Assembly: GCA_033439265.1 (NCBI GenBank)
Contig: JAVTVX010000019.1
Coordinates: forward strand, 7,447,501 to 7,511,500
Source of the DNA: Dillenia suffruticosa
Taxonomy: Eukaryota > Streptophyta > Magnoliopsida > Dilleniales > Dilleniaceae
DNA length: 64,000 bases
Direction: 5' to 3'
Below are positions 1,840 to 24,337 of the stretch, piece after piece. The stretch's first letter is position 1; every line of letters starts with the position of its first letter. Position numbers and translations under genes: made by a program. The notes beneath the pieces were generated by a model. The model made no database searches. It saw only the letters and a program-made list of their open reading frames with translations, and was not told the DNA's origin.

Positions 1840-2999
1840 TGAGGTTTCCGATTCTTTGCATTGCTTTGATTGAAGAGTATTTCATTGTTGAACCAACAAG
1901 GGAGGAAAAAGAATCTTTTCCAGAATTTACTCATTTCTGAACACGCAGAAACTCTATCCATTCCTAAGTCACTCTATGTTGATTATGTTATCTTCTCGTG
2001 TGAAGCCACTTATTTGTTTCACTACAATTTCAGAATATGCCTGTTGTTGGAAGCTAGTTGCAACTTTAACTTTCCTTTCAATTTCCTTTTCTTGCTGCTA
2101 GGGTCTATCACAATGCTTGTGTCTTTATAGCATGGAAAAATAAATTTTGAAAGAATAAACGTTGTGTTTAATGGGTAGTCTTTATTTTTTTTTCTTTTGG
2201 GAACATAAAAAGTTCTTTTTTTTTTTTTTATGTGAGCTAGTGTTGCAAAGCTAATCAATTGAAAATGAGATTCGAATCACTTGACTTTATATTTGTGACT
2301 CAAATGTAATGACAAAATGATGAATTTTACTATTACAGATGTCTTAAATTTGGTAAACCTGCTCTCTCTAAATTCTACATTTCATAAATCGAATGCTTTC
2401 ATAATGCAATAATTCTTTTTGCTTGTCACAAGTGCACTCACTAAATAGTGCCTGCTGTATTCCAATGTCAGTCAAATGATTTTATCAGCTAGATGATACC
2501 ATTGCTTTGTGCTTACTATTCAAATAGAACACCTTTCGAAAGGGGGTTTCTCCTTCACTAATTATTGAACGGTAACTGCTGATGTGTACTAAGAACTAGT
2601 AAAAAAGGCACTTTTCATATTTCTGTTAGCATGGCAGGCATATTACTGAATTTCTTTTGAAATTGCAGTTAATAAACTGTGAAGTTGATGTCTTAAGTTA
2701 AAGTCCACACATGGGTTTCATTTACTGCATTCCGAAAAGAGACAAAATACTGGCTTGCTCTAAATTATTGGGCCTAGCCTTATGTTAATACTTCACCTGA
2801 AATTCTTATTTAGTTGATTTACTATAATGGGTTGCTTGGATATTCAGGTTGAGGCTAAGAGGGCTTTATCTAGAGAGGAGTAGTATTTCTCCGGTACAAC
2901 CACAAACTCTTTCAGCTACAAAAGTTAAAACATGTTAAGCTTCTTAACGCACATTCTTATCAATTCCTAAAACATGTAATTGTTGTTTTCCTTATTTAT
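1840..2999. other. non-coding DNA upstream of transposase exons
   Basis: AT-rich with no clear domain. A short open stretch after an acceptor at about 2848 (VEAKRALSREE, then stop) cannot be assigned. No CACTA-type left terminus was found here. Confidence 0.35.
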
Positions 3000-3019
3000 C
3001 TAACATTTCTAATTTTTAG

Positions 3020-5876
3020 TATAAACGTGGGGGACACGCTCAACATTCACAAGGACGATCTACCACTGCCCCTTCCCTTTCCCCTTCTCCTTTGCCATCC
3101 CCATCCCCCTCTACTTCTGAATCTGCTGCAGCCCCATCTTCTTCAGTTGCACCTTCAGTGCAACATTCAAATGATGCGCAAGACATATGCAAAGAAGATA
3201 CACAACATATCATAACCGCATGTTGAGATTCGTTAGTATTTTATTTTATAATTTTATTTAATATGATTATTTTTATATATATAGTTCTTTTAATTATATT
3301 TGTTATTTACCATTGCTCTTTTGTAAATTCGTATTCTTTAGATTCTCAAATTCAGTATATATGGTTCGTATTCTTAATAGAATTGTAAATAATCATTGGG
3401 GAGGGATATCGACCACTTACACAAGCACTTGGAATGAATCGGAGGACCATGAAATAAGACGAATTTTCAACAAGAAAGTTGGTGATCACATTTGCAATGT
3501 GATTAATAAAGCGAAAACAAGTTGGACAAAGCCACATTGTATCACAGACGATAATTGGATGAGAATATTGGCCATTTGGGAGTCCGAGGATAGTATAAAG
3601 AAAAGCGAGCAGAACAAGAGGAACAGATCATGTAATTTTGGCCAAGAGTCTGCAACTTATGTGAGGGGTTGATCAATATCGATAAGCATCGAAAAAGATT
3701 GGTAACTCAATGAAAATACCTATATTTCTTTAAATCAATTAATTTATGTTCTTACTTTTTCATTAATCAAAACAATGAGTGGTTTTTATCTTTATAATTT
3801 TTTTAAATAGGCTAAAGAAAAGGGTTCTGAGCCTTCATATATGGACACTTTTGAGCGTACATTTCAGAAGAAGGACAAAACCTGGAGTGGGGAGAGAGCA
3901 AGAGCTATATCGGTATGTGATTGACCACTTTTGTAGTTTAGTGTTTTATATATATTGAATTTGAATTTTGACAACTCCTCTCTCACAGATTCATAACTTG
4001 CATTGCGCTCATTAGATAATATGATGTCTTTTATTTTTTGGATAGACTTATCAAATGTTGGTTATGTATGTTAATTGATGCCCATATTGGCTGGATTGAT
4101 TGTAATTCATTAAGGTGATTAGTATTCTGCATACTATTGGGATATGCTACTTTTACACTTAGGATGTTCTTTGGGTACATTACCTCTGAAGGCCCTAATA
4201 AAGTTTTCGCTGCAAGCTGCACCTAATTACTTACTGAAGATAATTTGGTGAGAGAATTAGTTGTATTGAGGGGGTTAAATTTCTATCCTTGGGATAAATC
4301 TTCAGCTCTGAAAGCTCTTGTTGAGTAAACTTTGATATCCGGATGAATTTGAATTTCTTTCTTCAATTCTCTTTATTGGGTGGCATTATCTATCAAAGAA
4401 TAAATAAATTAAAAAACCAGGACTAGAATGGCATCCCTCTTCATATTTTGGCTGATTTAATGACATATTCTCATCTATGATCCTGTTGACTTTTTTATTG
4501 GAGAAGGGTGTTTAATAATTGGATTAAAAATTGATACCTTGTTCTGGATACCTCTTGTAATGAGTTTGATTGCTCCATAGTCCATTCATGTTCCAGCAGT
4601 GTAATGGTTTGGCTCCAACTCAATATTGTATTAGGTTACTGGTCAATATAGACTAAGACTAATGAAGAATCAATTTCCTGTTAGCCTCTCATAATTGTGT
4701 ATCCCATAGCAGTGCATTGATTTGCCTATGACACGATCTATTAATATGTTAGACAATGTATATGCTCTAATGTGGTATTGTACTTAATACACACATGAAG
4801 GAAAGCAAATGGATGCAAAGAGAGCTCAATACACATGATGCTATATAATGCCAATCTCTCTCTCTCTCCTCTCTCTCTCTCGTATGTGATACGGGGATAT
4901 GCCATTTGTTTCACCACCTCAAGATTTTTCTTTTCAGAATCAATCACTTCTGGCATGTGTTTTCCTCTTTGAAAGAGAAAAAGAACAAATCATAATATGA
5001 CTCGAAAATTGTTGTCATGTGCATCCCAGCAGGAAAGTATATCCTTGATAATTTGATTGCAGTACTACTTGCATGGACTTTACATGAGGATTTGGGAAAA
5101 GAAATATTTATTTTCCAATCCATAAACAGTATTTCCATTAGATATTAATTTAACTATATAATAAAATCAAATTAGCATAGGGTAAGAATGTGAGAATGCG
5201 ATTTTGACAATCCAATCGTCATCACTATTTGTTTTTTATTTGTTTTAATAATTTCATTCTAATTTCATTCGGTTGGTTTATTGTTAATCCAATTGTCATC
5301 ACTATTTGTTTTTTTGTGTTTATTTTTTTCTTTTCTTTTCTTAAATTTTATTGGACTTATTTTCTTGGACTCATTTTGTATGGTATGATTTGGTAGATAT
5401 ATTCTACTTCACTTTATTATTTGTGCATACTTTTTTGTCTTCTTCATATTTTTATGAACTTGTAATTCTTCATTCTTATTACTTTCTTTGACTTTCCTTT
5501 TGATGTCCATCATTAAAATGCAGGAGAAATATAATGAACTACTACTGGCTAATTTGAGTGGTGGTGATGATGGTACATTATCTGAGCAATCTGTTGATAA
5601 TATGGCAGCGTGGTTAGAGGCAATTGGTGGGGGTAAAGAAAGGAAGAATATTTGGCATGGGATCCTTGCGCGAAGTGTACACACCTATTCCTTCATGCTC
5701 CACTGCGGCCATTACAATGAAACAAGTCCAACTAGACGAAGAAGTGCTTGGTCTCAAAGTAGAACTTGCAAAAAAAGATGAACAAATGAGTCCAACTTAT
5801 CCCCTCGTTGAGTCAGGTTCCACCTTCTATGCCTCCTACTGATGACCTCGATGCTAACAACCAACATGATGATTGA
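3020..5876 (+). pseudogene. CACTA (En/Spm) accessory transposase, Transposase_24-like, decayed
   Basis: Several exon-like blocks in order resemble the plant Ptta/En/Spm transposase family (Transposase_24), thought to be a DNA-binding, TNPA-like protein of CACTA elements. Block 1 (3020-3225) begins KRGGHAQHSQGRSTTAP and is Ser/Pro-rich. Block 2 (about 3313-3702) carries the W/K-rich core (WNESEDHEIRRIFNKKVGD ... WESEDSIKKSEQNKRNR) and ends INIDKHRKRL before a gtaact donor. Block 3 (3811-3912) continues AKEKGSEPSYMDTFERTF. Block 4 (5524-5876) has EKYNELLLAN and, in another frame, GRIFGMGSLREVYT, ending PPTDDLDANNQHDD-stop. Frameshifts are visible near 3664, in the G-run at 5629-5634, and around 5790, so this copy is not functional. 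No DDE-type TNPD catalytic gene is present. The downstream repeat array at 6360-6893 belongs to the same element. Confidence 0.7.
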
Positions 5877-6359
5877 TGGTTGTTTGTTCGATATTATTCG
5901 CATATTGTTATTGGATGAATATTGGACGATATTTATTTTGTTATTACTATCTTTGATGTTGAACATTAGACTATATTTACATTTGTTTGATTTTGATTTT
6001 ATTCACATTTTGTTCGATGTACAAACTCTTATTCGATAGTTGTTTGTTGATTGCAAAATTTGTAGATTTATTATATGAATGTTCGTTGGCTGAACATTTA
6101 TGGTTTTTTGGCTCCGCTACATATGAATCGAATATTTGGTTGGATATGAATGATATTGGATTGGATAGTGATTGATGGAATTTTTTTGTTCAATTGGATA
6201 TTTGAATGTTGGTTGCACAGGTTTTTTTATTTATTTTTTACAGGGAAAAATATTAAAACAAACGGAATTTTTTTTTTCCTAATTTCACATTTATGTCGCC
6301 AAAGAATTTACATATTCGTCAAGTTCGTCACTAAGTTAGGCACGAATTAATATCGGTAA

Positions 6360-6893
6360 ATATTGCCTGAGGTTAGAAATGGATAGAGTAGGCCGTTGCT
6401 GAGTTTAATGATGGATAAGAGCGCTCGTTGCTGAGTTCAGCGACGGATAAGAGCGCCCATCACTAAGTTTAGCGATGGATAGGATGTTCATCGCTAAGTT
6501 TAGCAACAAACAAAGATGTCCGTCGTTGAATTTAGCGACGGATAAAGTTATCTATCGCTGAGGTGAGTTACAGATAGAACGGTCTGACGCTTAAGTTAGC
6601 GACAAATAGGGATATCCGTCACTAACCTAAGCGATGAAAATCACCATCCGTCGCTAAAAGTTAGCGACGGATTCATTTCTTCGTAGCTAATTTAGTCACG
6701 AAATTTTCCGATGAAATTTTTTTCATCACTATTTTGGTGAAGAATTTCATTTTTCCGTCGCTAAGCTTTTGCGATGCCGTATTAGCGATGAAACAATTTT
6801 CGTCGTTAAATCCATAGTTGATATATTTAGCGATGAATTTTTCTAAGATTTTCATCGCTAAATCCGTCATCAATGCCGTGTTTTCTTATGGTG
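6360..6893. repeat. CACTA subterminal repeat array and degenerate right end
   Basis: A run of imperfect, roughly 35-45 bp units built on tttagcgacggat and its complement, alternating in orientation (for example at 6440-6650). It ends in ttttcttatggtg at 6881-6893, a degenerate version of the ttttcttgtagtg terminus of CACTA elements. In En/Spm the TNPA protein binds multiple short subterminal motifs. By analogy the GCGACGGA motif is the likely binding site for the protein encoded upstream, but that link is inference. The same motif fills the four short CACTA copies downstream. Confidence 0.65.
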
Positions 6894-6989: not shown

Positions 6990-7219
6990 AAGTCAGTCAC
7001 AACTCACTTCAAGGTTTCCTTTTATAATTGGATAAGTTGTTCATTACAATGCTTGAAAAAATTAGAGTTTTTAAAACCGAACTAATAATCAACTTGGCCA
7101 ATCTAAGTCGATCACAACTCATTTCAAGATTTCCTTCTACAATTGGATAAATTGTTCATAACAATACTTGAAAAAAAAAACTAGTGTTTTTAAAACCAAA
7201 TCAATAATCAACTCAGCCA
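6990..7219. repeat. 115-bp tandem duplication
   Basis: Two units with a period of 115 bp (6990-7104 and 7105-7219) share agtc-gtcacaactca, an aattggataa-ttgttcat-ac block and gtttttaaaacc. The second unit runs into the left end of the probable MITE at 7181, so the duplication includes the MITE's left tip. Confidence 0.7.
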
Positions 7220-7556
7220 ATCTATCAGTTCATTAGTTCATTGATTGAACCAGTCAAACCATTTTACGAATCAGATGATATTATGATCATGTCATATATA
7301 TAATTTGCGTATTATATATTTTAAAATAAAATAAAATAAAATTCATATATTTATATGAAAAAAAGAATTTGTATAAAAAAACAATGACTGCAATGAAAAA
7401 TCAATCGGACCGGTTTTAACGGTTTTGATCGATTTTAAACGATTTTGACTGGATTTGATTTTATTCGATTTAATAATACAAACTGAATCGAACGATGGAA
7501 TGATTCATAATCGAACCGGTTGAACTAGCCGGTCCAGTCCGATTTTGCAAACCCTG
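7181..7556. mobile_element. probable hAT-type MITE rich in AACCGG motifs
   Basis: The left end (ctagtgtttttaaaacc) and the right end (gattttgcaaaccctgg) are imperfect inverted repeats. The interior is dense in fuzzy ccggtt/gaacc motifs (7410-7545) and has no coding capacity. This composition is familiar from short hAT-like plant elements with terminal ~AGGGTTTTxAAAACC repeats. I could not find a clean 8-bp target duplication, so the boundaries are approximate and the class is an inference. Confidence 0.4.
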
Positions 7557-8191
7557 GAAAATAGGTAATAAATGAATTTTTAGAGTTGAGAAGAAATGTA
7601 GGACATATGTAATCTCCAAAATAATTATAATATAATATGTTAATCTAGTAACTGTATTAAAATTATTTTATCTCTAATTAATTCTACTAAATAATTAAAA
7701 CTATATTTCAAAATAAATATTATATTATTTATAGAATTCAATAAATAGAATCTATTATTTTATTCTTGGCATGTATATATTCCTATGTGCCATCCCTCTA
7801 TAAAAGACCCGTAATTGTGATTCAACAAAATATATAAATAAATGTATTATCTTCTCCTCAATTATTTAATACTATGAATCCCTTATCTAAAGTAGATGTA
7901 CAAAATATTTAATTTATTTTCCATTAGGCAATGAAACTTGACAAATTTTATAAATATTCGACATGATAAAAAATTGTATCATTAGATTTAGTTTCTGGAT
8001 TGTCGACTAAGGCGAATCAAGAGGGCGATTTTTAATACAATCAACATAGTTCTCTATTATTTATGCATATCCCAATAAACCAATGCCGTATATCCAACGT
8101 ACGATGGCCTTTACCATAAAAGATTTCAATTATAATACCTTAAAGTATATAATAATGATTTCATAGATTCATTCACATACACTCAAGATTA
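7557..8191. other. AT-rich spacer
   Basis: No gene or element terminus is visible. The last three bases (tta) are the candidate left target duplication of the following CACTA copy. Confidence 0.4.
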
Positions 8192-11100
8192 CACTACAAA
8201 AAAATATGGTTTTAGCGATGGATTTTAACGGCGGAAAAATTTTGTCGCTATTTTGTGATGGATTTAGCGACGAAAAATTTTTTCGTCGTTAATTTGCAAC
8301 GAAATTAGTGACAAAAAATTATTCATAGCTAAATTTGCAACGAATAAATTATTCGTGACTAAATTTGTCACTAATTGGCAACAAAAAAATTTTTATGGCT
8401 AAATCCGTTGCTAATTGGAGACGAAAAATTTTTTGTTGTAAAATTTGTCGCTAATTAATAACGAATAAAAATTTTGTGACTAAATTTTGTCACGGAAACT
8501 GTTATCCGTCACTAAATTTAGCGACGAAAATATTTCATCATTAATTAGCTACAAAAATTTTCCGTCACTAATTAGTCACGGCAAAAATATTTGTCACAAA
8601 ATTTAGCAACAAATTCTAAAATTCGTGGCTAATTTCGTCACTAATTAGCCACAAAAAAATATTTGTGGCAAAATTTAGCCACAAAAAAATTTTCCGTATC
8701 TCTTTTTTTAACATATTCTAAATAATGAAATCGAATTTAATACATATTAAATATTACAATTCTCACCAATTTGATAATTTTTAACAATAAATAATTCAAC
8801 CAATTTGTAACAAATAATTTTCAATTAGTCGCGGCTATCGATTTCACTATTTGTGTTTTTATCTTCTACGTCCATTCGCTTCTCTTATATAGTTCAATTG
8901 TCTATGAAAGTTCAATTATTCATTTTCATTTGTTATTGCCATTAGCAATGAACACAATATCTCATACATTCACTTCCGATGATCTATCTCGTCTGACAAG
9001 TAAATCAAACAGTATAGTTTTGGAGGATGGCGGCAATGAGACGGATAACTACGGATAAACGGTAATTCATTTATTTTATTTTATTACACTTTTATTTTAT
9101 TAATTTATATTAACTACTCATATTTAATATTTTATAATATCTTAAATAAGCATTTAATTTTATTATTTTATTATTTTTTTTTATTTTTTAAAGACTAATA
9201 TTATTTTATTTTTTAAATATTTTATTATTTAGCAATGGATTTAGCGACGAATTAGAAATTTGTCGCTAAATTTAACGAGACATTCAAGAACCGGTCTCTA
9301 AGTTAACGACGAATTAAAAATTCATTGTTGATTTAGCGACGGATTCCACGATCCATCGTTAAATTTAATTTTTTTAATTTAACATTTTATATTATATTTT
9401 ATTTTGTTATTTTATTATTTTATTCATTTATATTACCTAAACATATTTATTCGGAATCCATCACTAAATTTAGCGACGAATTCAAGAGTCCGTCGCTAAG
9501 TGAGCGACGGATTTACAAATTCGTCACTGATTTAGTGATGGATTCCACAATGCGTCGCTAAATTTATTTTTTTTTTAATTTAACATTTTATTATTTTATT
9601 CATTTATATTACCTAAACATATTTACTATTTTATAATTATTTTAAATTCAATTTTTTATTATTTTATATTTTTATTTTTTAAATAATAATATTATTTTAT
9701 TTTTTAAAATATTTTATTATTTAGTAATAGATTTTGCGACGAATTCGGAATTAGTCACTAAATTTAGCGACGAATTCGGAATACATCGCTAAATTTAGCG
9801 ACGCATTCAAGAATTCATCGCTAAGTTAGTTACGGATTTAAAATTTTGTCACTAATTTAGCGAGTGATTCCACGATCCGTCACTAAATTTAATTTTTTTT
9901 AATTTAACATTTTATATTTTATTTTATTTTGTTATTTTAGTATTTTATTCATTTATAGTACCTAAACATATTTATTATTTTAAAATTATTTTAAATTCAT
10001 TTTTTTATTATTTTATATTTTTATTTTTTAAATAATAATATTATTTTATTTTTTTTAATATTTTATTATTTAACGATGAATTTAGCGACAAATCATGCGA
10101 CGAATCATCATTTTATATTATTTGATTAATTTATGTTAACCAATCACATTTATTATTTTATAATATTTGAAATTACTTTATAACAAATCATCATTTTATT
10201 TTATTTTATTATTATTAATAATATTTTATATCATTGGTCCATTAGCTAATTTTGTATTTTATATTTTATTTTATTTTATTATTTTATATTAACAAATCAT
10301 ATTTATTATTTTCTAATATTTTAAAATTAAATTTTATTTTTTATATTTCTTTTTTAAAGAATACTATGATTTTATTTTTTAAAATCTTTTATTATTTTAT
10401 TCTAAATTAGTATTTTAATTTTTATAACAAATATTATCATTTTTTATTATTTTGTTATTATTAATAAAATATGATAGTAAGATAACAAATTAAAAAAAAA
10501 CCATATTTTAAAATAGCATTTTATTTTATTTTTAGGAATAAAGCTAATATATTTTTTATTCATTTATTATTTTATTATTTTACAAAAAATTATCATATTT
10601 ATTATTTTTAATTAATATGTTATATTTTATTTTTTAATTCATTTATTATTTTATTTTACGTTAGTCTTTTATTATTTGATAAAAAATTATTATTTTTTAA
10701 TTAATTTGTTATATTTTATTTTATTTTATCATTTTAAAGAGTAGAATTATTTTTTTAAAACTAACATTTTGTTATTTTATAATAAAAATATCATTTATAT
10801 TATTTTATTATTTTTTAGAAAATTATTAGAATAAGATAATAAGTAAAACAAGAAAAAGGAACAAGACCAAGTAAGACAATTGGTCTGGTGGTCGTGTTTT
10901 CTAACCATTTTACTTCTGCGAAGGTTCGATCCATGGGAAAAGCAAACGGAGGCAATTTTGAGGGATTTTTCACAAGTCAAGGCCGCAGATGTGGATGCAG
11001 GCCGGGTGCGGACGTTGGTGGGCCGCGGACGCTGGCAGGCTTTATAATTAGAGATGAGTTTAAATCTATCGCTAAGTAAATATAAAATTAAATAAAATAT

Positions 11101-11326
11101 AATATTAATATAATAATTAAATAAATTATAAATTATAAATTTAGTGACGAAAATTAAATATCCGTTGGATCTGGAAAATTTGTCGCTAAGTTTAGCATCA
11201 AAAAAGTTTTCGTTGCTAAATCTATCGTTATTTTAGCAACGAATTTCTCATTTCGTCGGTAAATTTTTACGACGCGTCGTTAGTAACGAAAAATTTTTCG
11301 TCGCTAAAATAGTGTTTTTTTTAGTG
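8192..11326. mobile_element. non-autonomous CACTA element, 3.1 kb
   Basis: Begins cactacaaaaaaatatgg and ends in agtgttttttttagtg (reverse complement begins cactaaaaaaaacact). Flanking triplets are tta and tca, a 2-of-3 match to a 3-bp target duplication. Both ends are packed with tttagcgacga / tcgtcgctaaat repeats in both orientations (8210-8690, 9230-9540, 9735-10100 and 11145-11310). The centre is long (A/T)n sequence. A tRNA-like module sits at about 10840-11050. There is no transposase gene, so movement would need proteins from a related element such as the one at 3-6.9 kb. Confidence 0.8.
10840..11050 (+). other. tRNA-like (pol III A/B box) module inside CACTA element
   Basis: After gataataagtaaaac comes tggtctggtgg at 10881-10891, close to the A-box consensus TGGCNNAGTGG. 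It is followed by aggttcgatcc at 10922-10932, matching the B box GGTTCGANTCC, 41 bp downstream, which is tRNA-like spacing. Then come ttttcacaag and GC-rich sequence. The same order recurs in three other CACTA copies of this window. No cloverleaf closes, so it is not a tRNA gene. Confidence 0.6.
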
Positions 11327-11616
11327 TCAAGAGCACATAAATTGCATGCAACTATAGAGTTCTAATTTTTACTCATAGTACATTTTAAAAAATTACTATA
11401 TATGTCATGTTGCACTTGCTTGTCACCTGCACTAACTTCAATTGAGTATGGATCTTATTCAAATCTAAACATTTATTGATCAACAAGATAAATCATTTTT
11501 GACAATTAAAAGACTCACAAGTTATATTTTAAATCTTGATAAAGTGTCTAGTTTCTTCAATTAACTATGAATCATTTACTTTAAGTTGATGTAACCATGC
11601 CTTATACCTTATGTAT
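11327..11616. other. spacer between CACTA and LTR elements
   Basis: AT-rich sequence with no recognisable gene. Confidence 0.4.
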
Positions 11617-11621
11617 GTATC

Positions 11622-11912
11622 TATAACAACTATAGTTAGTGGTTAATCATAGTTAGAAATATTAGGTAGTAGTTAATACATTAGTTAGTAGTTAATAGAA
11701 ATAGTTAAATAATTAATAAAAATAGTATAAATAATAATGTTAAGACATGTATTGGTATGGAATTGAATGTAATAAAATGAAATCTCTATTTCTCTCTTTC
11801 ACCCTCTCTATCTCTCTATAGTCTTTCTCTCTTTATCTCTCAATTCTTTGTCTCTCTCTCTCCCTCATTCTATCTCTCTATACATTTTTATCCTCTGAAG
11901 AGGATTGTTACA
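11622..11912 (+). repeat. 5' LTR of the short retroelement
   Basis: A 291-bp direct repeat of 12666-12959. It begins tataaca (mutated from tgtaaca) and ends tgttaca, three bases before the Met-tRNA primer-binding site. Confidence 0.88.
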
Positions 11913-12291
11913 AATTGGTATCAGAGTATACATTTCTTGGTGAATCTTTGTCTTCAAAGAACAAATGCAAGAATCAACCATGGAAATCAAAGGAAATCAT
12001 TTTCGGTTGGTACAAAACATGGATGAAATCAATCAAAAAATTGATGAACGTGGCAAAAGGATGGACGCTCTCATGACACGTATATTGAAATATTAGGTAT
12101 CAATGAAGATATCAACACTTTGGTGAAAATGAAGCAAGAAAATAAAAAAAAATGGAAAGCAATGAAACAAATCAAGTGGTAAGTGACATAATATCAAAAC
12201 CCAGGGAAGAACAAGGTATAGAATCATTTTCTAAACCTCTCATTTTTCTACTCCTAATGAAAAAATGTTGAGAGTAAAAATATTTCAAGTG

Positions 12292-12387
12292 TCTAAGAAA
12301 GAATGGTCTTGCATGTTCAAGAAAGAAGGGTCTTGTATGTCCAAGAAAGAATGGTTTTGCATGTCTAAGAAAGAAGTTCTTGATGGT
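12292..12387 (+). repeat. 24-bp coding tandem repeat in the retroelement interior
   Basis: Four units of tctaagaaagaatggtcttg-catg type with a period of 24 bp. They encode SKKEWSCM, FKKEGSCM, SKKEWFCM and SKKEVLDG in the open frame 12265-12567. The function of this open frame is unknown. Confidence 0.8.
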
Positions 12388-12665
12388 GGATTCTTACCAA
12401 ACTCTCCAAAAATTAAATTTCTAATGTTCGTCGGGAAAAATCAGTCACCAAAAAGAAATTCAAGAAATGTCTCTATCAAGCTCTCTCATTTCTATTTTTC
12501 TCTCACTACTCTTCATATAACTCAAGTTATATCGATTATTCTTTTTTTTTATCATCTTATCTTTTAATACAAATGCAAGTCATGGTTCCAAATTTATGGA
12601 TTCAAATTTCAATTCTTGATTTTTTTCTATTCTTGAGAACAAGGATGTTTTCAAGGGAAAAGTAT

Positions 12666-12959
12666 TGTAACAAACTATGGCTAGTGGTTAATCATAATTA
12701 GAAATATTAGTTAGTAGTTAAAACATTAGTAGTAGTTAATAGAAATAGTTAAATAGTTAATAAAAATAGTATAAATAATAATGTCAAGACATGTATTGGT
12801 ATAGAATTGAATGTAATGAAATAAAATCTCTATTTCTCTCTTTCTCCCTCTCTATCTCTTTATAGTCTTTTTCTCTTTATCTCTCAATTCTCTCTCTTTC
12901 TCTCTCTCCCTCTTTCGATCTTTCTATACATTTTTCTCTCTCTAGAGAGGATTATTATA
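12666..12959 (+). repeat. 3' LTR of the short retroelement
   Basis: A 294-bp direct repeat of 11622-11912, beginning tgtaaca and ending attattata, followed by the target duplication gtatc. Confidence 0.88.
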
Positions 12960-13253
12960 GTATCGTCAATTTGATCACGTCCACAAGTACAAATATTGAC
13001 CTTCGGACCTTGTACATGTATAAATAATATTTAAAACTACTTTAATAACTAAACACAAACATTATCTTAAAATAGAAATGTCAATATAGTCTTTTGTGCA
13101 TACTAAATAATAAAACTAATAAATAATTAGGACCTAATCCCAAAAATATCATGGGTAGACAATGGAGGTATACATGTTAAAATTAATTGTGAATAGGTAT
13201 ATGAGTGAGGACCTAGCAGATTAGCAATTGAGAAAAGTTTGAGATGATACATT

Positions 13254-14208
13254 CACTACAAGAAAATACGCTATCAGCGACAGAAAATTATTGACGAAAA
13301 AAATCTGTCGGTAATAGTGACGGATTTGCGATGAATTAATATCGGATTAAATTAGTGATGGAATCCGTCGCTAATGTGGTAAACAGTAATAAAAAAAATC
13401 GTACAGTTATCAGCAACGGATTACCGACGAAAATTTTACCGACAGATTACGGACGAAAATTTTACCGATGAATTTTTTATTTTTTAATTTTTTAATTTTT
13501 AAATTTTTTAATTTTTTAATTTTTTTAAAAAAAATTCTTTTTCTTTTTCTTGTTATTTTATTTTGTACAAAAATAATATAATTTTAAAAAAATATATTAT
13601 TTTATTTTAAGCTAATTATTTATTAATTTATTATTTTATAATAAATTATCATTTTATATTATTTTATTATTATTAAAAAAATTGTGATCTAAAGATAACA
13701 AATAAAAAAAAACAATATAAGCAGATGTGTAGGTGTGGTCTGATAGTTGTAATGCTGTTGAACTTTTTCCCAGTGTTGGAGCAAGGAATTTTCACAAGTT
13801 AAAGGAGGCAACACACGGTCGGGCAGGCACGGGCCAGGGAGGGCGTGGAGTGGGCAGGGGCGCGGGGTGGAGGTGGGTAGGTCAGCGTGCTGGCCAGGGC
13901 GGGCGTGGGGCCGCATACATTCTCCTTATAACTCAAAAATCAGCGATTGATTGAAATCCGTCGCTATTTTTTTTTTTTATCAACGATGGATTTTTTTCTG
14001 TCGCTAATCATCACTGATGGATTTTTTCTGTCACTAATTCGTTGCTAATTTTAGCGACGAATAGTATTCCATTGTTAATATTTAGCTGGATGGCTTTCAA
14101 CGACAGATTTTTTTCCGTCGTTAATTTATTACTGAAAGATATCAGCGACTGATTTTTTATTTTCAGCGACTGATTTTTCCATCGTTGAAAATATATTTTC
14201 TAGTAGTG
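13254..14208. mobile_element. non-autonomous CACTA element, 0.95 kb
   Basis: The left end is cactacaagaaaatacgc and the right end is gaaaatatattttctagtagtg, giving good CACTA inverted termini. The flanking triplets att and atc match at 2 of 3 positions. Subterminal repeats are of the agcgacagaaa / cgtcgctaat type. The centre carries a tRNA-like module (A-box-like tggtctgatag at 13736-13746, with the B box degraded) followed by GC-rich gggcaggcacgggccaggg-like sequence to about 13910. There is no transposase. Confidence 0.82.
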
Positions 14209-14913
14209 ATCGTTAAAACAACTACTTTGGACTTAACACATATGGAGTTACGTTGTGTGGAATCAGGAAAAGAACTAAAAATATGTGATATGATGGGGAG
14301 GGGGGACTGGTTGGATAAGTGGTGATGAGATTCAGAATATATTAGTTGAGAAGCATTAGAGCACTCTTGATTACAATAAAAAAACATAAAACCACTATTG
14401 ATCAATCTACAAAGGACAACACACGATAAAAATTGTAGCTATTAATTTTCAAAAGGAATCTTGAAACGAGGTCTTCAAATGTACGCATAGACACTATTGC
14501 ATAGTTTGTGGACGAAAAATCAAAAAGAAAAAAAAATCTAATGTTAGTAATTGATCCATTTTTACATAATACTTCGTCGCACTTTAACGGATAGATGAAA
14601 GGTGAACTAATACATTTTATCTAATTCAAAAATAAATACTAGCCAAGATTGTTGGAATTCATTCATTCATGTTACCTTTTTTATGTGCATTTTACCACCA
14701 AAAATTAAACTCTAAATTCATCATTTTTGGGAGTAATTCCTCGACATCTTCAGATGAATCGAATCAGTTGCCTCTCTATACACCTTTTTCTTGCTTGAGA
14801 ATTTGCATTAAAAGCTATCAAGGGAAAACAAAAGCACTCGAGTAAACTCATAAAATTTAGAAATCCTTATCACTCATAATACCAATAAGACGCATACCTT
14901 TATATTAAAGCAA
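14209..14913. other. spacer between CACTA copies
   Basis: No gene is recognisable. The final triplet caa (14911-14913) is the left target duplication of the next element. Confidence 0.4.
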
Positions 14914-15391
14914 CACTACAAAAAAATACGATTTTATTCATGGATTTTTGCGACGGAAAAAATTCGTCGTCATTTTGCGACGGAAAAAATTCGTCGTCAT
15001 TTTGCGACGAATTTAGTGATAAAAACTTTTTCGTCGCTAATTTGTCACAAAATTTGCGACGAAAATGAACTCGTGGCTAAATTAGTGACGGACACATCAT
15101 TCGTAGCTAAATTCGTCGCTAATTAGTGACGAAAAAATTTTCGTGACTAAATTCGTCGCTAATTGGCGACAAAAAATTTTTCGTTACAAATTTTGTGGCT
15201 AAATTTTACCACGGATTTAAAATCCGTCACAAAATTTAATCTTTTTTAAATAAAATTTTATTTTTTCTATTTTACTTTTTATTTTATCAATATATTATAT
15301 TTAAGTTAAAAATATTATTGTATTGATAACTTTAATTTTATTTATATTATTTTATTCAATAATACAAAATTTTTAATTAAATATTAATCCG

Positions 15392-15540
15392 GATATGCTG
15401 GGCGCCGGGCATAGGCAGGGGCGCGAGCCGGGGATAGGCAGGGGCGCGCGCCTGCGCGGGCGCCGCGCATGCACGCACGGGCGCCTGGCGCAGGCAGGGG
15501 CGCGTACCTGCCTGGGCACCCGCGCCCTGCTCGCGCCCTT
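15392..15540. repeat. extreme GC island of ggcaggggcgcg repeats
   Basis: About 150 bp of very high GC made of degenerate repeats of gggataggcaggggcgcg and gggcgcc, embedded in DNA that is mostly A and T. It lies inside the 14914-16410 CACTA copy. It has no convincing coding content. Confidence 0.85.
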
Positions 15541-15644
15541 TTAATTAATATTATTTTAGGTTGGTGGTTTAAATAAAAAAGTTATTATATTTATTATTTA
15601 AATTGTTATTATATATTATTTTATTATTATTAGAAAAATGTGAA

Positions 15645-15952
15645 TGAAAGATAATAAGTAAAAAAAAAATTTATATCACATAATTTATTTGGTTTGGTAG
15701 TTTACAGGTTTATGCGTGTGCGTGTAGGTGCAGGTGTGCAGGAGTTCGAACCACGGTGGCCGCAAAGCGGCATTTTCCAGCAATTAAGTGAGGAGAGCTG
15801 GAGCAGGGGTGCTAGCTCGGGCGGGCGGGGGTGTTGGCTCGGGCGGGCGGGCAGGTTGCAGGTTGGTGCTTGCTCGGGTGGGGGGGTGGGTGGGGCCTGT
15901 CCAGGCACGTGGCTCCAGGCTTGTGCTGGCTTGTGGGCAGGGCATTTGGAAT
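15645..15952 (+). other. tRNA-like module plus G-rich tail inside CACTA element
   Basis: After agataataagtaaaaa comes the A-box-like tggtttggtag (15690-15700) and then gagttcgaacc (15742-15752), a near-perfect B box, 52 bp apart. The attached tail is cattttccagcaattaag, then gctcgggcgggcgggg repeats. A long open frame here (15694-15999) follows only from high GC and lacks any recognisable domain. Confidence 0.6.
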
Positions 15953-16410
15953 CAGCGACGGATTTGAATTCAGCGACGGATTTTTTTATTCGTCGCTAAA
16001 TTAAGGACAGATAATTTTTCGACAGATTTTTATTTTCCTAAATTAATAACGGATTTTAGCGACAAAAATTATTCGTTGCTAAATTTAGCAACGAATTTTA
16101 GATTTTCGTCGCTAAATTTAGCAACGGATTTTTTTATGTCGCTAATTTAGCGACAAATAATTTTTCGTCGCTAAATTTTATGACGAATTTTAGCGATGAA
16201 AAATTATTTGTTCTAAATTTAGTGGCAGATTTCAGATTTTTGTCGCTAAATTTAGCAACGGATTTCTAATTTTCGTTACTAAATTTTTGTGACGCGTTAT
16301 TAGCGAAGAAAAATTTTTCGTCGCTAAATCCATTGTTAATGTTTTTAGCGAAGAATTTTTTTTAATTTTCGTCACTAAAGTTGTGGCTAAAAAATTGCTT
16401 TTTTGTAGTG

Positions 16411-19163
16411 CAAGAAGAAAACAAATAGACAACGTGTGCAAAGATAATATAAAGAAAAAAAATAAGAGAGAAATAGTGACACAACTTTTTAGATAAAAAC
16501 TCTCTATAGTTGTTTGAACCAGGCTTCCACATCTTATCCTTTTTAGGATAATTATGTTATTACAGTAGGATCTCTATGAAGACTATCTATCCATGTCTTT
16601 ACTTAACTGGATTGTGTTATGCTTTCTCCTAACTTAAACTTAGTTGAATAGCTCTCCCTTACTTAGTCATTAGATTCAAATTATCAAAACAAGGAAGGAA
16701 GATCTACTACTTTTATTTGATTTTTCAACAAATTTCAACCTATTTTTTTATTAGTATGATTTTGATGTAAAGTACTAAAAGCCGGAGGGCCATTAACTAG
16801 ATGTTAACTTTATGCTATAAGCTTATGCTATGATAGAGAGTGAAAAATTATAAAGTTTAAGTATCAAAGTGAATTTAATCTTCACGTTGGATTGGCTTTT
16901 AGTCTGATAGGAAAGATCAACTCTATTTGATTAAAGGGGAATCGAGGCTTTTAATTGCATGTGTAACCAAAACCATGTTCCCTACTTTCAATCAAGACTT
17001 TGAATACATCAAGAACAATAATCAAAACTCACGACAATTGACCTATAAGAACCCCTTACGCGCAAGGGAAAAATTAAGAAAGAGTTGTAATTGAAAGCTT
17101 AATAAATTATATGGTAATGGTTTTAGAGTCAGAGATCGATCCCCAAAATCTTTCAATCGAAAAAGAAAAACTTTTTGGTTGTGGTTATCTACCCATCGGA
17201 AAAGACAAAGTCTTCACTTTTCAATTGAGTATAATCTATCTCTTCCAATCAATTCTCACTTTGATCCTCAATCAGGGATATATTAAAATTTTATTCTAAT
17301 ATTAGTAGCAGTGATGGCGACATCTATCTTTCTTTCGAAGGTGATAGGCATTGCCAAAGAAAGAACTCTAAACTCAATCTTCTACATAAACCTCTATATT
17401 AGCTAAGCCTCTTACCCTTTGTCCATTCACTTCTTTAATACGGGAAATGGGGATAAGCTTGATTGAGGAAATTTGCCATACTTTGGGTGCAAAACAATCG
17501 ATCTCTAGCTTTTGACTAAGTTAACTAAGCTTAGAAAGGATCAATCTAACTAAAAGATATATTTCTTATAGCAAGGTATCCAAAGAAAGAAAATTTAGAA
17601 ACAAAAAAGAACTAAAGTTTGTCTAAAAATTGAGGACAAGCAAACGACTTTCTGGAATCGATAACTCCCATTACAAGTAAAAAGAATCTAATCTCAATCC
17701 CTAGTGGCACGAGGTGGCTAGATGTATTTTTTTTTGGCTCAGCTTATATGCGATTACCACAATCATGAGTTTGAGTAAGACAGTTCGATATCTCAGTCAT
17801 GACCTATGAGCTCTGCCCGATGAACTTAAGCTTTCTTTAGAAGGAAGGCTTCCCCAACTTATATCATTCATATCCAAATGTATTAAAAAAAAGGTAAGAA
17901 GGGCCCTTAGAGTTAGCTACTTTTTCTATGATCATACTTTGGTCTCCCATTGGTCACCTCCTTTCCTGCTCTATCTTCATCGGGATTCAGGACGTTTTTA
18001 AGGTTCCATTTTTTATGCACCTACTCTTGAAGTTATTTATAACCTATCTTCTGTTGGTTCAATCCCTCATCATTTTGTCTTGAGTAAGAGGTCGAGTAGT
18101 ATCAAATAGTACTTTCATGGATGACTTGCTTACTCTGAATTGGGATGTATAATTAGAAAATAAAGGAAAAAAAAGATAAATTGTGCAAAAATCTATACTT
18201 TTTTTATTTCTTTCATGGGGTTAATTGTTTAGATTCTGTTAATCATTAAAAATTAGCATTCTTCTTTCAAAACAAGGCCATTTATTCCTTTTTTGTTTAG
18301 TATTCTTGGTCGTGCTTCTATGTATATATGGGGTAAGCTCTACGTTGCTGCATAATACACAATATGGGAGGGTAGATCTCTTAATGGACTATTGTAAGTT
18401 CTAAATCGTATTAGTTAGAATATGGTTTCGGATATTGATTGGTATAACACAAAAAAAATAAGAGCACTTATTAGAATTGCCTTTAATACACATTATGTGA
18501 ATAGTAAGCTTAATTTTTGTACGATATCTCTCCGTTCTGTAATTTGTCCATGAAAGATGAAAATTGCTAGGCTCTCTCTTTAGGATGGAACCTTAGTTTA
18601 GTATAGGCTAGCGCCTTATTTCAATTCTTTTTTGTAGAGCACATACATGTCAACTCCTTTTATAAGAGGACTCTTAGTTCAACTTTAAGGGTCCAACCTT
18701 TTTTCTTTTATTTATGCAATTTGTCATTTGCTTCATGAAAGCATTTAGAGATATGTACATTGCTAAAGCTCTCTCTACTATATCATAGGATACCTTCCAC
18801 TTAGTAAGAAAATGTTATACTATTGCTCAATCTTAGGCAAAAATTGACTTTTCAATTCTTGATCTCTAATAGTCCAAATTTTTCTTAGATAACCTAAGGG
18901 ATGATTGAAAAGTGGATGCAAATGTAATGGTTCAAGATACCGAAGTTTAATAACTACAATACGGTCAACGACTTAGATCACCTCTTGTCATCCTTTTTTG
19001 GGGATTGTCGATGTCTTGACTTCCGACCTAGCTTATTAATCCATCTTTGTGGTAAGTTATAGAAAGAGAAGCATTCAGGTGGAACTCATCTTTCCCCTTT
19101 TCTCCGTTTAGCCTAATCTTACTTTCACAAAAGGAAATAACTAACTTTAGCTTAGTTCTAATA
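16411..19163. other. old repeat-like intergenic DNA
   Basis: 2.7 kb with no identifiable gene, LTR pair or terminal repeat. Phrases such as gaaagaactctaaactc suggest the remains of an old retroelement, but nothing can be assigned. It appears to be continuous with 24675 onward once the hAT element is removed. Confidence 0.35.
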
Positions 19164-19974
19164 CTTGACACTCGGGTGACGGGGGTTCGGTTTGAACTGT
19201 GAACCGAACCGGAACCAGTTGTCCAAAAACCGAACCGGAATCATTTTTTTGGTTCTGGTTAAAAAATCGAAATCGAAACTGGAGACTTATAGCTCGGTTC
19301 TAATTTTTGATTTTTAAAAATCAGGACCGGAACCAAAACTGAATCTTTTTTTATTGAAATTAGAATTGAATTTTTGAAAACAAGTGGTTTTTGTTTTTAC
19401 GAGAGCTAAAGTCACTTTAAAAATCGAATTAGAATTCATTGTTTTTATACAAGGATCTAATTTATTTAAAATTCAATTTTTTTTATTGTTCTATCCCAAC
19501 AATGAGCATACACAAGAATCAAAATCATTTAAAATTCAAAATTTTTATTATTGTGTCACAACAATGAACATGCATAGGGATGAAAGTCATTCAAAATTCA
19601 AAATTTTCATTGTTGCGTTACAGTCATAACATTGAATAACACCATTGTTGTGTCATAAAATTCAAATTTTAAATTTTTTGTAATTACATTTATACCCTTC
19701 AAAACTAGTTGTTATATAATTTTTAGAAGAATAATTTTAATCCTAAAAAGTGTAAAACATTTATAAATACCACTACAATTTCATTTCCCTTCATAAATCA
19801 ATTCTCATTTTTTACTTCTTATTATTAATATACTCTCGGAACTTTATTTTAATTCACATTTTTAATTTCTCCACTCTCAATTGATATTTTGAATTTTTCA
19901 TTCTCTCTTATATTCAATTGCACATTTTTTCGATTTCTAATTCTATTCGATTTCATTTATCAAAAAAGTATATT

Positions 19975-20729
19975 GAGTGGTAGAGATTAGTGATAGAAAT
20001 TTTAACGACAGATTACAGATAGAAATTTTACAAACGGATTAGCGATGGATTTTTTTAATTTTTTAATTTTTTAATTCTTTTGATTTTTTTAATTTTTTTC
20101 AATTTTTTAATTTTTCTTCTCTTTTACTATTTTATAATTCTTTTTATTTTTTCTTTTATTTATTTTATTTTTTCTTTTATTCTATTATTTTATTCTTCAA
20201 TTTAATGGATAAATCAAAAAAATAATTTGCTATTCTATCTTAATTAATCAAAGAAATATTTTATTTTTTTATTTAGCGCAAATTTAATCAATATCGATTT
20301 CAAACGGTTAGAAAAATTTAATAAGAATATCCAATGAAAAAAATTACCCCAAGGTAAAGAAAAAAAAAAGATGAGAGAGAGATAAAAAAAATGTAAGAAG
20401 TTAGTATTAAAAAAATAAGTGAGAGTTAGATAATAAATTAAAAAAAAAGAGAAAATATCACAACAGGGATTGTGGCATAGTGGTTGGAGATCTCATCATC
20501 CATGCGGGAGGTGTAGGTTCAATTCCAATAGGTGACATTTTTCACAGTTCTGCAAGTTCGACGAAATTTTTAATGATGGAAATAATGTATCGTTGATAAT
20601 TTAGTGACAGATAAATTCCATCAGTAATATTTAGTGGGATGATTTTTAGCAATGAAAATTTTCTATCGTAATCCGTCGCGATTACTCTTTAGCGACGGAA
20701 TCTTTACTATCAACGATAGATTAGTAGTG
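19975..20729. mobile_element. non-autonomous CACTA element nested in the hAT
   Basis: The left end is degenerate (gagtggtagagattagtgat, from cactactag-like) and the right end is gattagtagtg. A perfect 3-bp duplication att flanks it (19972-19974 and 20730-20732). It holds agcgacggaat-type repeats near the right end, ttttttaatttt runs and a tRNA-like module at 20425-20560. Because it lies within the hAT, it inserted later than the hAT. Confidence 0.75.
20425..20560 (+). other. tRNA-like (pol III A/B box) module inside nested CACTA
   Basis: tggcatagtgg at 20475-20485 is an A box, and ggttcaattcc at 20518-20528 is a B box one base off consensus. They are 43 bp apart, which is tRNA spacing. It is followed by atttttcacagttctgcaag. 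This is the best-preserved A box of the four modules. The acceptor stem does not pair, so it is tRNA-derived rather than a tRNA gene. Confidence 0.65.
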
Positions 20730-21732
20730 ATTTTTCTACACAATAACTCAACACATAAATATTGAAGTTGAAAATGATGATGATGAAGAGATATGTACAA
20801 AAAAAATATTGAAATCCTATTTTTAAGGTACATTTTAAAAAAGATCGTTTGCCAATTAGTTCAATACAAATTATTTGCAATTAATATGGGAAATAATTCA
20901 AATTCAAAAAACGTGGACGATATGGGATATTTAAAAATCATTTGAATAACAAACATCCAACCGAAGTTTTTTCGTGATAGATCACAAACTCAAAAATTCA
21001 GATTTGTATTTTCTAATTCTTCTTCTCTTTTTATCTACTTTGATGAAAAAAATATGAAAGAATTATATAAAATGATTGCTATTAAATATTTATCTTTTAG
21101 TTTTGGTGAAAAAATATGATTCATTAATTATTACCAAAATGTTTTAAATTTTTCCATAAAATGTGTGTCTAGAACTACTGTTATACATACAACTCTTAAA
21201 CTTTATAAAAGGGAAAAAAATAATTTACAAAAGTTTTTCCAAAAATTTTAATGATCAGATTTCTATATATGTGATACTTGACGTTATCATTGGCAAAAAC
21301 ATCCGTTTATGACTATTACATGTTATTGGATTGATAATAATTGAAATATCCATAAACATACAGTTGAAAATATTTATAAAATCATTAGTTCAATTTTACA
21401 AGAATATTACTTAGTGAATAAAATTTTTTCTATTGGTTTTGATAATGTTTTTGCTAATACTGTTTTTGTTAGACATTTAGAAAATATTTGTAAATCTTGT
21501 TTTGGTGGTTAATTTTTTCATATAAAATGTTTATGTCATATATTAAATTTATGTGTTTAAGATGGATTAAGATATCTTGAAATTATCTTACCCCTATTAA
21601 AAATATAATTTTTTATTTATGGAATCATCCATAACTAACGAAAGATTTGTAAAGAAAATGGAAAAAGTCTAAAAATGTTCCAATACTTTGGAATTCAACT
21701 TATGAATTATTAAATGAATTATTTTCTTATAG

Positions 21733-21844
21733 ACAATTATTATGTGTTTTTTTTTTTATTACATGAGATTCGAATACTAGATCATGAGTTAGGAGAGGGA
21801 ATTCTGACCTTAGACCGTCCCCTTGGGGACACAATTGTTATATG
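21733..21844 (-). mobile_element. tRNA-derived SINE insertion with target duplication
   Basis: An 84-bp insertion (21747-21830) splits the hAT transposase relic. On the minus strand it starts ggggacggtctaaggtcag (A-box-like), has tattcgaatctc (B-box-like) and ends in a poly-A of about 11 (the T-run at 21747-21757). It is flanked by imperfect 14-bp duplications acaattattatgtg (21733-21746) and acaattgttatatg (21831-21844). Poly-A, pol III boxes and target duplication together define a SINE. Confidence 0.72.
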
Positions 21845-22277
21845 CTTTTATTGCAAATATTGTTAATTCTATTGTTGTATATTCACAATAATGGAATGCT
21901 TGTGAAAAAAAATTTAAATTTAATAAAAGTGTTTAACGATGTTACATATACATTGTCCAGAGTTTATTATCCTATATTTTCATTATTTTTACTAGAAATT
22001 ATTAATATTGTAAATGCTATGCAAAAGTGTGAAAATGATAAAAATTTAGAAGATACAATTTATCTAATGAAAATAAAATGGTGCAATCATTTTTATGAAA
22101 TTTCTGGCATTTATCTTGTTGCTATTGTTTTTTGTCGTAGATGTAAATTAGATGGCTTATTTAATTATTTAACTTTCTATGTTGATTATTTAAGAATAAA
22201 TGATTTTGATGTTGCACAAAATATAAATTATATTAGAAAATTAATTTTTGATATATATGTTGAATTTAGTGTGACAT

Positions 22278-24337
22278 TTGATAATTGTAATCAACAATAT
22301 TCTCACTCTATAAATAATGGGGAATTTTATAAATTGAATAAAGCTGAATAATTATTATTTCAAAAACAAAAGAGACTAAGTGCCCATTTGACAGAGTTTT
22401 TTTTTTTTTTTTTTTTTTTTATCTTCTCCTTTTAAGGAGAAGTAAAAATTGATTCATTTAAAAAAAAAGTTTAAAATTGTTTGGATTTTTTACTTTTGAA
22501 ATAAAGTAGTTAACTTCTTTTTTACTTTTCACTTTGAAGTAAAATTAAAAATTAAAAATTAATAAGTATATTTAAAATTTTGTATCATTTAAATGATAAT
22601 ATTAATTGAATAAAACTAATTATATCAGGATATAAATAAAACAAAAAAAGATAAATTTCCGGAAAAGCTGAAAGATTAAAAAAATGAGAAGAAAAAGCTC
22701 CTCTTAGGAGATTTTTCTTAAAAGCTACTTTTTAAATTTTTTTCATGAAAAAAAAACTCTTTTTTATGAACTTTTAAAAAATTTCGTTTGATAGGATTTT
22801 TTTTTTATAAGAAGAATAGAAACTGAAAAAAAACCTACCAAATGGGTACTAAGAGTTTTATTAAATTCTACTTCTGAAATTGATATATATCTAATAACTT
22901 TTTAGTTTAGTGTCTATCTATTTTTGAAAAATTTTCCAGTTCTAAAATGATGGAAAGTGCAAGCAAACAATTTTCTTATATTATCACAAATTGTTAAATA
23001 AATTTTAGCAACTATTGTCTTAACTGTGATAATTGAACAAGCATTTCGTATGAAAGGGAACAATTTAGATGAGACGATCATATATGACTCCCGAATCGCT
23101 TGAGGCACAAATCTGTTTGAATGATTGGGGTAGAACAAAATGTAGACAACAAGAGATAATTAAGAAGAATAATGAAAATTTATGCGATATTACAACAAAA
23201 GGCACATCAACCGCAACCTCCGATAATATTTCAGATTAAATTAAGATAAGAGAGTTACAAATTCAAATGGTAAGTGAACTATGAAGGTTTTAATTCCTTT
23301 AAACCTCAAAAGAATACGTAGAAAACTTAATTTATATAAATTAAATTCAAGCTCTTTTTTTATTTTTCCTTTTTTTAATTGTAAAATCAAAGAATTAAAT
23401 ATGTGATATATTGTAATTAAAAGAATGATAATATATATTTTTGTTTGGTAATGGGAATTTGTTGACCAAATATGTTTCGATAAGGATGTTTTTATGGTAG
23501 ATATTTGATTTAAAGAGTTATATAGAACAAATAAATGACCTAAACTTGATAATTTTACTCAACAATATTCTCAATCTATAAATAATGAGGAATTTTTTAA
23601 AATGAGAAAAACTGAACAACTAATATTTCAAAGACAAAAGAGACCAAGAGCTTTATTAATTCTACTTCTGAAATTGATATATATCTAACAACTTTTTAGT
23701 TTAGTGTCTACCTATCTTTAAAAAATTTTCTTGTTCTAAAATGATAAAAAGAGCATGCAAATAATTTTCCTATATTATAATAAATTACTAAATAAATTTT
23801 AGCATGTCTTAACTGTGATAATTGAACAAACATTTAGTATGAGAGGGAATATTTTTGATGAGACAATCATGTAGGACTCCCGAATCACTTGAAGCATAAA
23901 TTTGTTTGGATGATTGAAGTAGAACAGAACTTAGACAATAAGAGATAATTAAGAAGAATAATGAAAATTTATACGATATTACAATAGAAAACATATCAAC
24001 CGCTACCTCTGACAATATTTCAGATTAAATTAAGATAAGAGAATCATAAATTCAAATGATAAGTGAACTACGAGGGTTTTAATTCCTTTAAACCCCAAAA
24101 GAATACGTAGAAAACTTAATTTATATAAATTAAGTTCAAACTCTTTTCTTTATTTTTTTCTCTTTTCTAATTGTAAAAACAAAAAATTAAATATATGATA
24201 TATTGTAATTATAAGAATGATAATATATATTTTTGTTTAATAATGTGAATTTATTGACCAAATATGTTTCGATTAGGATGTTTTTATGGTAGATATTTGA
24301 TTTAAAATGTTACATAGAACAAAAAAATGACCTAAAC
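22278..24337 (+). repeat. tandem duplication of the hAT 3' coding region
   Basis: Unit A is 22278-23545 (1268 bp) and unit B is 23546-24337 (792 bp). They align from ttgataattntantcaacaa to aatgacctaaac and share the dimerisation region. The length difference is the 465-bp MITE present only in unit A. Divergence between the units is moderate, so the duplication is old, but the MITE came after it. Confidence 0.85.
22374..22850. mobile_element. MITE with paralogous empty site
   Basis: About 465 bp (22380-22844) with termini tgcccatttgacagagtttt and, on the reverse strand of the right end, acccatttggtaggtttttt. It is flanked by actaag on both sides (22374-22379 and about 22845-22850). The interior is AT-rich with a T-run of 24 bases and no ORF. 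The unduplicated target survives in unit B of the surrounding duplication (agagaccaagagctttatt near 23640). Terminal sequence of the CCCATTTGG type is common in hAT-like MITEs, but the 6-bp duplication leaves the superfamily open. Confidence 0.78.

Follow-up and report, generated by a model that had tools for sequence, protein, structure and literature searches.

Non-autonomous CACTA elements of Dillenia suffruticosa that may carry a tRNA- or SINE-type RNA polymerase III promoter

Four CACTA elements in Dillenia suffruticosa have, at one homologous internal position and in the same order, an AT-rich lead, an A box and, in three of the four, a B box. They lie in a 64-kb stretch of contig JAVTVX010000019.1 (positions 7,447,501 to 7,511,500 of the forward strand; "the window," numbered here from its first base), and we call them E1 to E4. 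Judging from the sequence, we lean toward the view that this lineage of non-autonomous CACTA elements carries a type 2 promoter for RNA polymerase III (pol III), of the kind known from tRNA genes and short interspersed elements (SINEs), at a single ancestral position inside the element. The copies in the window are decaying: only E3 and E4 have both boxes with no T run between them. The elements are as follows.

8192..11326, + strand: E1, non-autonomous CACTA element of 3135 bp; ends CACTACAAAAAAA ... TTTAGTG; flanks TTA/TCA
13254..14208, + strand: E2, non-autonomous CACTA element of 955 bp; ends CACTACAAGAAAA ... TTTTCTAGTAGTG; flanks ATT/ATC
14914..16410, + strand: E3, non-autonomous CACTA element of 1497 bp; ends CACTACAAAAAAA ... 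TTTTTTGTAGTG; flanks CAA/CAA
19975..20729, + strand: E4, decayed CACTA element; 3' end TAGTAGTG; 5' end beyond recognition

These elements belong with the CACTA transposons, because three of the four (E1, E2, and E3) have CACTA...TAGTG inverted ends, and they failed each test that we made for a tRNA gene, a SINE, or a TRIM. The initial annotation of this DNA had given CACTA termini to all four copies, which goes too far only for the 5' end of E4. Subterminal repeats are another CACTA trait, and by BLAST E1 and E3 are homologous both in their ends and in these repeats. Part of E4 (19997-20135) has internal homology of the E2 kind (BLAST, E = 2e-20). The 3-bp flanks are identical in E3 (CAA/CAA), match at two of three bases in E1 and E2, and are undefined in E4. 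We looked for the long terminal direct repeats of TRIM-type elements and did not find them: when the two ends of E1, E2, or E3 are compared, they form short inverted repeats. By their ends and their internal BLAST matches, the elements seem to form two groups, one E1/E3-like and the other E2/E4-like. The module is present in both groups, as would be expected if it was carried along with the elements.

The motif that marks the lead, GATAAYAARTWAAA, has five exact matches on the + strand of the window and none on the - strand (10481, 10835, 13694, 15650, and 20429), and all five are inside E1 to E4. Four of them precede an A box, with 46 bp (E1), 42 bp (E2), 40 bp (E3), and 44 bp (E4) from the start of the motif to the box, which bears out the earlier observation of a lead before each A box.

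10773..10854, + strand: E1 lead, conserved AT-rich DNA with GATAATAAGTAAAA at 10835; BLAST match to E3 15588-15669 (78.8%, E = 1e-11)
13625..13712, + strand: E2 lead, with GATAACAAATAAAA at 13694; BLAST match to E3 15579-15668 (83.5% over 91 bp, E = 2e-20)
15588..15669, + strand: E3 lead, with GATAATAAGTAAAA at 15650; identified by the exact motif and by BLAST
20401..20448, + strand: E4 lead, with GATAATAAATTAAA at 20429; BLAST match to E3 (79%, E = 1.7e-5)

About 80 bp upstream of the A box are homologous across the copies: when we compared pairs of copies with dinucleotide shuffles, none of 500 shuffles reached the observed score in five of the six pairs, and 10 of 500 did so for E1-E4. In a global test with single-base shuffles, the counts (of 500) were 0 for E1-E2, E1-E3, and E2-E3, 1 for E3-E4, 6 for E2-E4, and 33 for E1-E4. 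BLAST aligned the leads in four of the six pairs, and these alignments end 17 to 29 bp upstream of the A box. With every module on the + strand, this confirms that the four modules are at one homologous place and in the same orientation.

We then consider the boxes themselves. We searched both strands of the 64 kb for A boxes (TGGYNNAGTGGT, scored at 10 positions) with a B box (GGTTCGANNCC, scored at 9 positions) 36 to 60 bp downstream. Just three pairs scored at least 15 of 19, namely those in E4 (18), E1 (17), and E3 (15); all other positions scored 14 or less.

10881..10892, + strand: E1 A box, TGGTCTGGTGGT, 9 of 10
10923..10933, + strand: E1 B box, GGTTCGATCCA, 8 of 9
13736..13747, + strand: E2 A box, TGGTCTGATAGT, 7 of 10; 10 of 12 bases in common with E1 and with E3
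15690..15701, + strand: E3 A box, TGGTTTGGTAGT, 8 of 10
15743..15753, + strand: E3 B box, AGTTCGAACCA, 7 of 9
20473..20484, + strand: E4 A box, TGGCATAGTGGT, 10 of 10
20516..20526, + strand: E4 B box, GGTTCAATTCC, 8 of 9

The A boxes of E1, E2, and E3 start exactly where they had been annotated, and that of E4 starts at 20473 instead of 20475. The three annotated B boxes are also present, with their starts corrected to 10923, 15743, and 20516. The A-to-B spacing is then 42 bp in E1, 53 bp in E3, and 43 bp in E4, so that three of the four copies have tRNA-like spacing by the consensus used here. When the 114 bp after the lead were shuffled by single bases, the observed pair score was reached in none of 2,000 shuffles for E1 or E4, in 19 for E3, and in 1,164 for E2.

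Taken in order, the AT-rich lead, the A box, the B box, and a T run 11 to 22 nucleotides (nt) later resemble the layout of a plant type 2 pol III gene. The T run is a T4 or T5 run that lies downstream of the B box by 22 nt in E1, 19 nt in E3 (T4), and 11 nt in E4 (T5), and neither E3 nor E4 has a T4 run between the boxes. Plant tRNA genes are described as having AT-rich upstream DNA, with CAA motifs in most of them and TATA in 22-32%, and 67-72% of them have a downstream poly(T) (PMC11700998); in plants, the TATA of tRNA genes is placed at -30/-24 (PMC7279448). If transcription began some 10 bp upstream of the A box, then GATAAYAA, which is 40 to 46 bp before the box, would be at about -30. 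In E1, E2, and E4, there is also a CAA no more than 25 bp from the A box. The AT-rich upstream DNA, the A and B boxes, and the downstream poly(T) are thus like those of plant tRNA genes (PMC7279448, PMC11700998), but the modules differ from such genes in having no match to a tRNA model, no cloverleaf, and box spacings of up to 53 bp.

If the module does work as a promoter, its parts would be the AT-rich lead with GATAAYAA, the A box, the B box 42 to 53 bp farther on, and a short T run as the terminator. TFIIIC would bind to the boxes and TFIIIB to the lead, and pol III would make a short RNA of roughly 75 to 95 nt, with the T run as its end. Movement of the element would be as DNA, by means of a CACTA transposase supplied in trans.

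A number of results, given in this paragraph and the four that follow, weigh against a pol III promoter. First, the sample is four copies from one 64-kb window. The number of pairs is only mildly unusual: in 60 windows made by dinucleotide shuffling in 250-bp pieces, the mean was 0.87 pairs, as compared to the 3 observed, and 3 of the 60 reached three pairs. With a generic consensus and one mismatch allowed in the A box, there were 12 pairs (six of them in the three modules) versus 6.2 in shuffled windows (1 of 60); with no mismatch, there were 2 pairs (E3 and E4) versus 0.38 (2 of 60). As a control, we scored four unrelated bacterial contigs (26 kb) on the same A+B scale. A real tRNA gene scored 16, which is a point in favor of the promoter reading. 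A score of 15 was reached at 3 places outside the tRNA gene. A score of 15 for E3 is therefore unremarkable by itself; 17 and 18 are remarkable.

These counts suit the idea that the CACTA backbone happens to resemble A and B boxes and that the resemblance was inherited, in which case the three hits would be a single coincidence. Since the copies are related, the hits are indeed not independent. However, no other pair in the window comes up to 15, the shuffles of the DNA after the lead never reached the score of E1 or E4, and E1, E3, and E4 keep both boxes at a tRNA-like distance, with a T run downstream of the B box, even though their interiors cannot be aligned. We think that coincidence is an unlikely explanation. 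The strength of the case for a promoter is in the common place of the modules in related elements together with E1 and E4; it is not in the number of pairs, nor in E3 alone.

Second, the individual copies depart from the expected arrangement. Neither box follows the fifth exact lead motif, at 10481 in E1. This motif lies in a repeat of the lead region (10433-10506), and in the comparison of E1 with E2, the second lead copy of E1 (10269-10506) gives a better alignment than the lead that belongs to the E1 module. Over the lead, BLAST gave no match for two of the six pairs, E1-E4 and E2-E4. E2 has no B box above background (its best A+B pair scores 12 of 19), so the B box of the copy at 13.7 kb is indeed lost, as annotated. 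In E3, there is no CAA in the 60 bp upstream of the A box. E1 has T4 runs between its boxes, at 10897 and 10908, as well as downstream of the B box, at 10956 and 10966; E2 has a T5 run downstream of its A box. The runs between the boxes of E1 and the T5 run of E2 should stop pol III early. Given the T runs in E1 and the missing B box in E2, no copies other than E3 and E4 could be functional now.

Third, similarity within the module is weak once the lead is removed. The observed scores were reached by 4 of 500 shuffles for E1-E2, 9 for E1-E3, 19 for E2-E4, 42 for E3-E4, 99 for E1-E4, and 241 for E2-E3. In favor of a promoter, the boxes are kept between copies (the A boxes agree at 7 to 10 of 12 bases and the B boxes at 6 to 9 of 11), while the DNA between the boxes is unalignable, with scores at the level of shuffles (125, 50, and 169 of 500). 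The tail ATTTTTCACAAGT is present with at most one mismatch in E1 and E2 only, which is as far as the annotated tail stands: E4 has two mismatches, as do 9 other places in the window that are not in the four modules, and E3 reads TTTTCCAGC. Relatedness outside the boxes had been named at the outset as the test of a common module, and the copies turn out to be related upstream, weakly related downstream, and not related between the boxes. Might different SINE heads have inserted independently into different CACTA copies, with the A-rich lead as a hot spot? As this would predict, the lead homology that BLAST finds in four of six pairs breaks off close to where the A-rich stretch ends, and there is no relation between the interiors. 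However, E1, E2, and E3 share the same departure from the A-box consensus, a G at position 7; the similarity of E1 and E3 (9 of 500 shuffles) extends from the B box to beyond the T run; E1 and E2 have the tail in common (4 of 500); and there are no flanking duplications. Repeated insertion therefore seems very improbable, and on our reading the copies probably descend from one ancestral module whose boxes were kept and whose interior was not.

Fourth, searches for a tRNA failed. Rfam gave no tRNA match, whether at the gathering score or at E values up to 10, and the same was true when each of the four modules was searched alone (121-136 bases, E up to 10). ARAGORN, run with the bacterial code, found no tRNA either. 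The predicted RNAs (69-95 nt) fold no better than shuffled sequences do (z = +1.8, +0.2, -0.2, and -0.9). With no covariance-model match and no cloverleaf, the module is not a recognizable tRNA gene or pseudogene, and in view of the z-scores (+1.8 to -0.9) we reject a structured small RNA. We also looked for signs of insertion. The longest exact repeats that bracket the module are 8 bp (E1) and 7 bp (E4), and E2 and E3 have none of 7 bp or more, which excludes a SINE insertion with a visible flanking duplication. On reading the sequence of the four elements, we saw no A-tail. The SINE or tRNA head that the initial annotation proposed as the origin is thus not supported by a tRNA match, a fold, or a flanking duplication; a tRNA or SINE may still have been the source of the module, given its boxes and layout.

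Such a source need not imply any function. A tRNA-derived SINE or a tRNA pseudogene may have inserted once into an ancestral CACTA element and been copied along with it ever since, decaying and with neither role nor activity. E1 and E2 do look broken, and no RNA structure has been kept. For comparable long terminal repeat (LTR) elements, Kojima suggests that the promoter came from an inserted SINE (PMC10886601). A larger CACTA element in the window also bears on this question.

3262-6893 (left end not found): larger decayed CACTA element, transposase-bearing; ends ...TTTTCTTATGGTG at 6893

Its transposase remnant (3262-3669) matches Transposase_24 with E = 0.0017, which is below the Pfam cut-off. 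E3 (16262-16379) aligns with this element (6744-6862) at 78% over 119 columns (E = 1e-22), and both stretches are 31 bp from the 3' end. There is no A+B pair above 14 at positions 1-6893 of the window, the left end of the element not having been found. Because a larger relative lacks the module in the window, the module does not seem to be a general part of CACTA elements, and we can reject the idea that all CACTA elements of this kind require it. The claim that every copy has the module is also weakened by this relative (for its part in the window), E2 without its B box, and E4 without its 5' end. The module thus seems dispensable to this kind of CACTA element, as would be expected of a passenger. 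On the other hand, a passenger should show a flanking duplication (none exceeds 8 bp) and an A-tail, although an old insertion could have lost both; and the boxes were kept while the interior became unalignable, which is not expected of plain decay. We regard an inert passenger as possible but somewhat doubtful, and we continue to favor a pol III promoter at one ancestral position.

The surroundings of the modules differ in base composition from the rest of the region. The region 7001-21000 is AT-rich, with 15-41% GC per kb. We defined GC-rich DNA by 60-base segments, taken in 10-base steps, with at least 65% GC; 32 of the 39 such segments in the window are in E1, E2, and E3, of which 21 directly follow the modules and 11 precede the E3 lead. 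GC-rich DNA downstream of the module in the three upstream copies had been annotated correctly.

10971..11040, + strand: E1 GC-rich stretch, downstream of the module
13801..13920, + strand: E2 GC-rich stretch, with two G-quadruplex-type motifs on the + strand (13821-13843 and 13852-13877)
15781..15950, + strand: E3 GC-rich stretch, downstream of the module, with one G-quadruplex-type motif on the + strand (15876-15895)
15391-15550: second GC-rich stretch of E3, upstream of the lead

These stretches hold three of the five G-quadruplex-type motifs in the window, and all five are on the + strand. In the scan of the window, E4 had neither a GC-rich stretch nor a motif of this type.

The subterminal repeats gave a side result. 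With E values up to 10, Rfam listed 56 matches in 8000-21000, many of them to microRNA families over the subterminal repeats, and none reached the gathering score. The sub-threshold matches to plant microRNAs fall in the CACTA subterminal repeats at 16049-16212 and 9456-9543; the match to MIR6297 has E = 1.8e-4 and a score of 39, as compared to a cut-off of 114. This hints that CACTA ends may be among the sequences listed as microRNAs. We also ran exact-pattern scans outside plant collections. Viral contigs had no matches to the two lead/A-box patterns, the A/B pattern, or the CACTA-end pattern, and among genome contigs the CACTA-end pattern was matched in four, all bacterial, with one end-like match each, which we judged to be chance.

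Four other features of the window lie outside the elements. Between E1 and E2 there is a direct duplication of 207 bp with 88% identity (11686-11892 and 12730-12936, about 1 kb apart), whose copies are perhaps the two ends of another element. A long open frame on the - strand (58191-60395) contains an F-box (F-box_5, E = 8.6e-10); it resembles MAX2, the strigolactone/karrikin F-box protein. A sub-threshold match to the EDR1/CTR1 N-terminal domain (29822-30349, E = 0.00095) may mark where a kinase gene has its first exon, and an open frame of 187 codons (21788-22348) has a sub-threshold match to Tmemb_185A (E = 0.0028).

How do these elements compare to known systems? The closest idea that we found in print is TRIMp3, which comprises the LTR retrotransposons Helenus, Ajax, and Cassandra, with pol III promoters derived from tRNA or 5S genes (Kojima 2024, PMC10886601). 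In both cases, a non-autonomous element that is not a SINE has the pol III promoter of a small-RNA gene (a putative one in the CACTA elements) and conservation around the boxes, as is described for the promoter boxes of the tRNA-derived Helenus, and the proposed origin of TRIMp3 is a SINE insertion (PMC10886601). TRIMp3 are LTR elements with RNA as the template, whereas the carrier here is a cut-and-paste DNA transposon, which requires no RNA copy. The main text of PMC10886601 never uses the term "DNA transposon." By this analogy, the CACTA elements seem to follow the plan of TRIMp3, but in a DNA transposon.

The comparison with SINEs is less close. Plant tRNA-derived SINEs are also short non-autonomous elements with A and B boxes (PMC9033089), but E1 to E4 have CACTA/TAGTG ends, subterminal repeats, and a 3-bp flank (E3), with no A-tail and no long flanking duplication. 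AnnoSINE is described as excluding candidates without target duplications and those with terminal inverted repeats (PMC8825457), and it would therefore probably leave modules of this type out of a SINE list. Small non-autonomous CACTA elements, named SNACs in PMC9033089, likewise have CACTA ends without a transposase, but where that article describes SNACs, it mentions no pol III promoter for them. Among the matches listed by our literature search (titles and the starts of abstracts in openly licensed PubMed Central), none reported a pol III promoter in CACTA or another DNA transposon family; Repbase and subscription journals were outside its scope, and this is no proof of absence.

A further step would be to see these elements as the class II equivalent of SINEs and TRIMp3, that is, as a CACTA family that was selected to keep a working pol III promoter or TFIIIC site. 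The site might keep chromatin open or bounded and so aid movement, or it might yield short RNAs. This suggestion is tentative, and we consider it rather unlikely. The insulator and the silencing trigger that the initial annotation brought up are likewise conjecture. For DINE-1, the absence of pol III sites was used to argue for a DNA transposon and against a SINE (PMC2374699). If the reading of a pol III promoter is true, then a CACTA lineage that carries and keeps pol III boxes would blur the rule by which pol III sites separate SINEs from DNA transposons, and it would raise the question of what a DNA transposon gains by recruiting TFIIIC or pol III.

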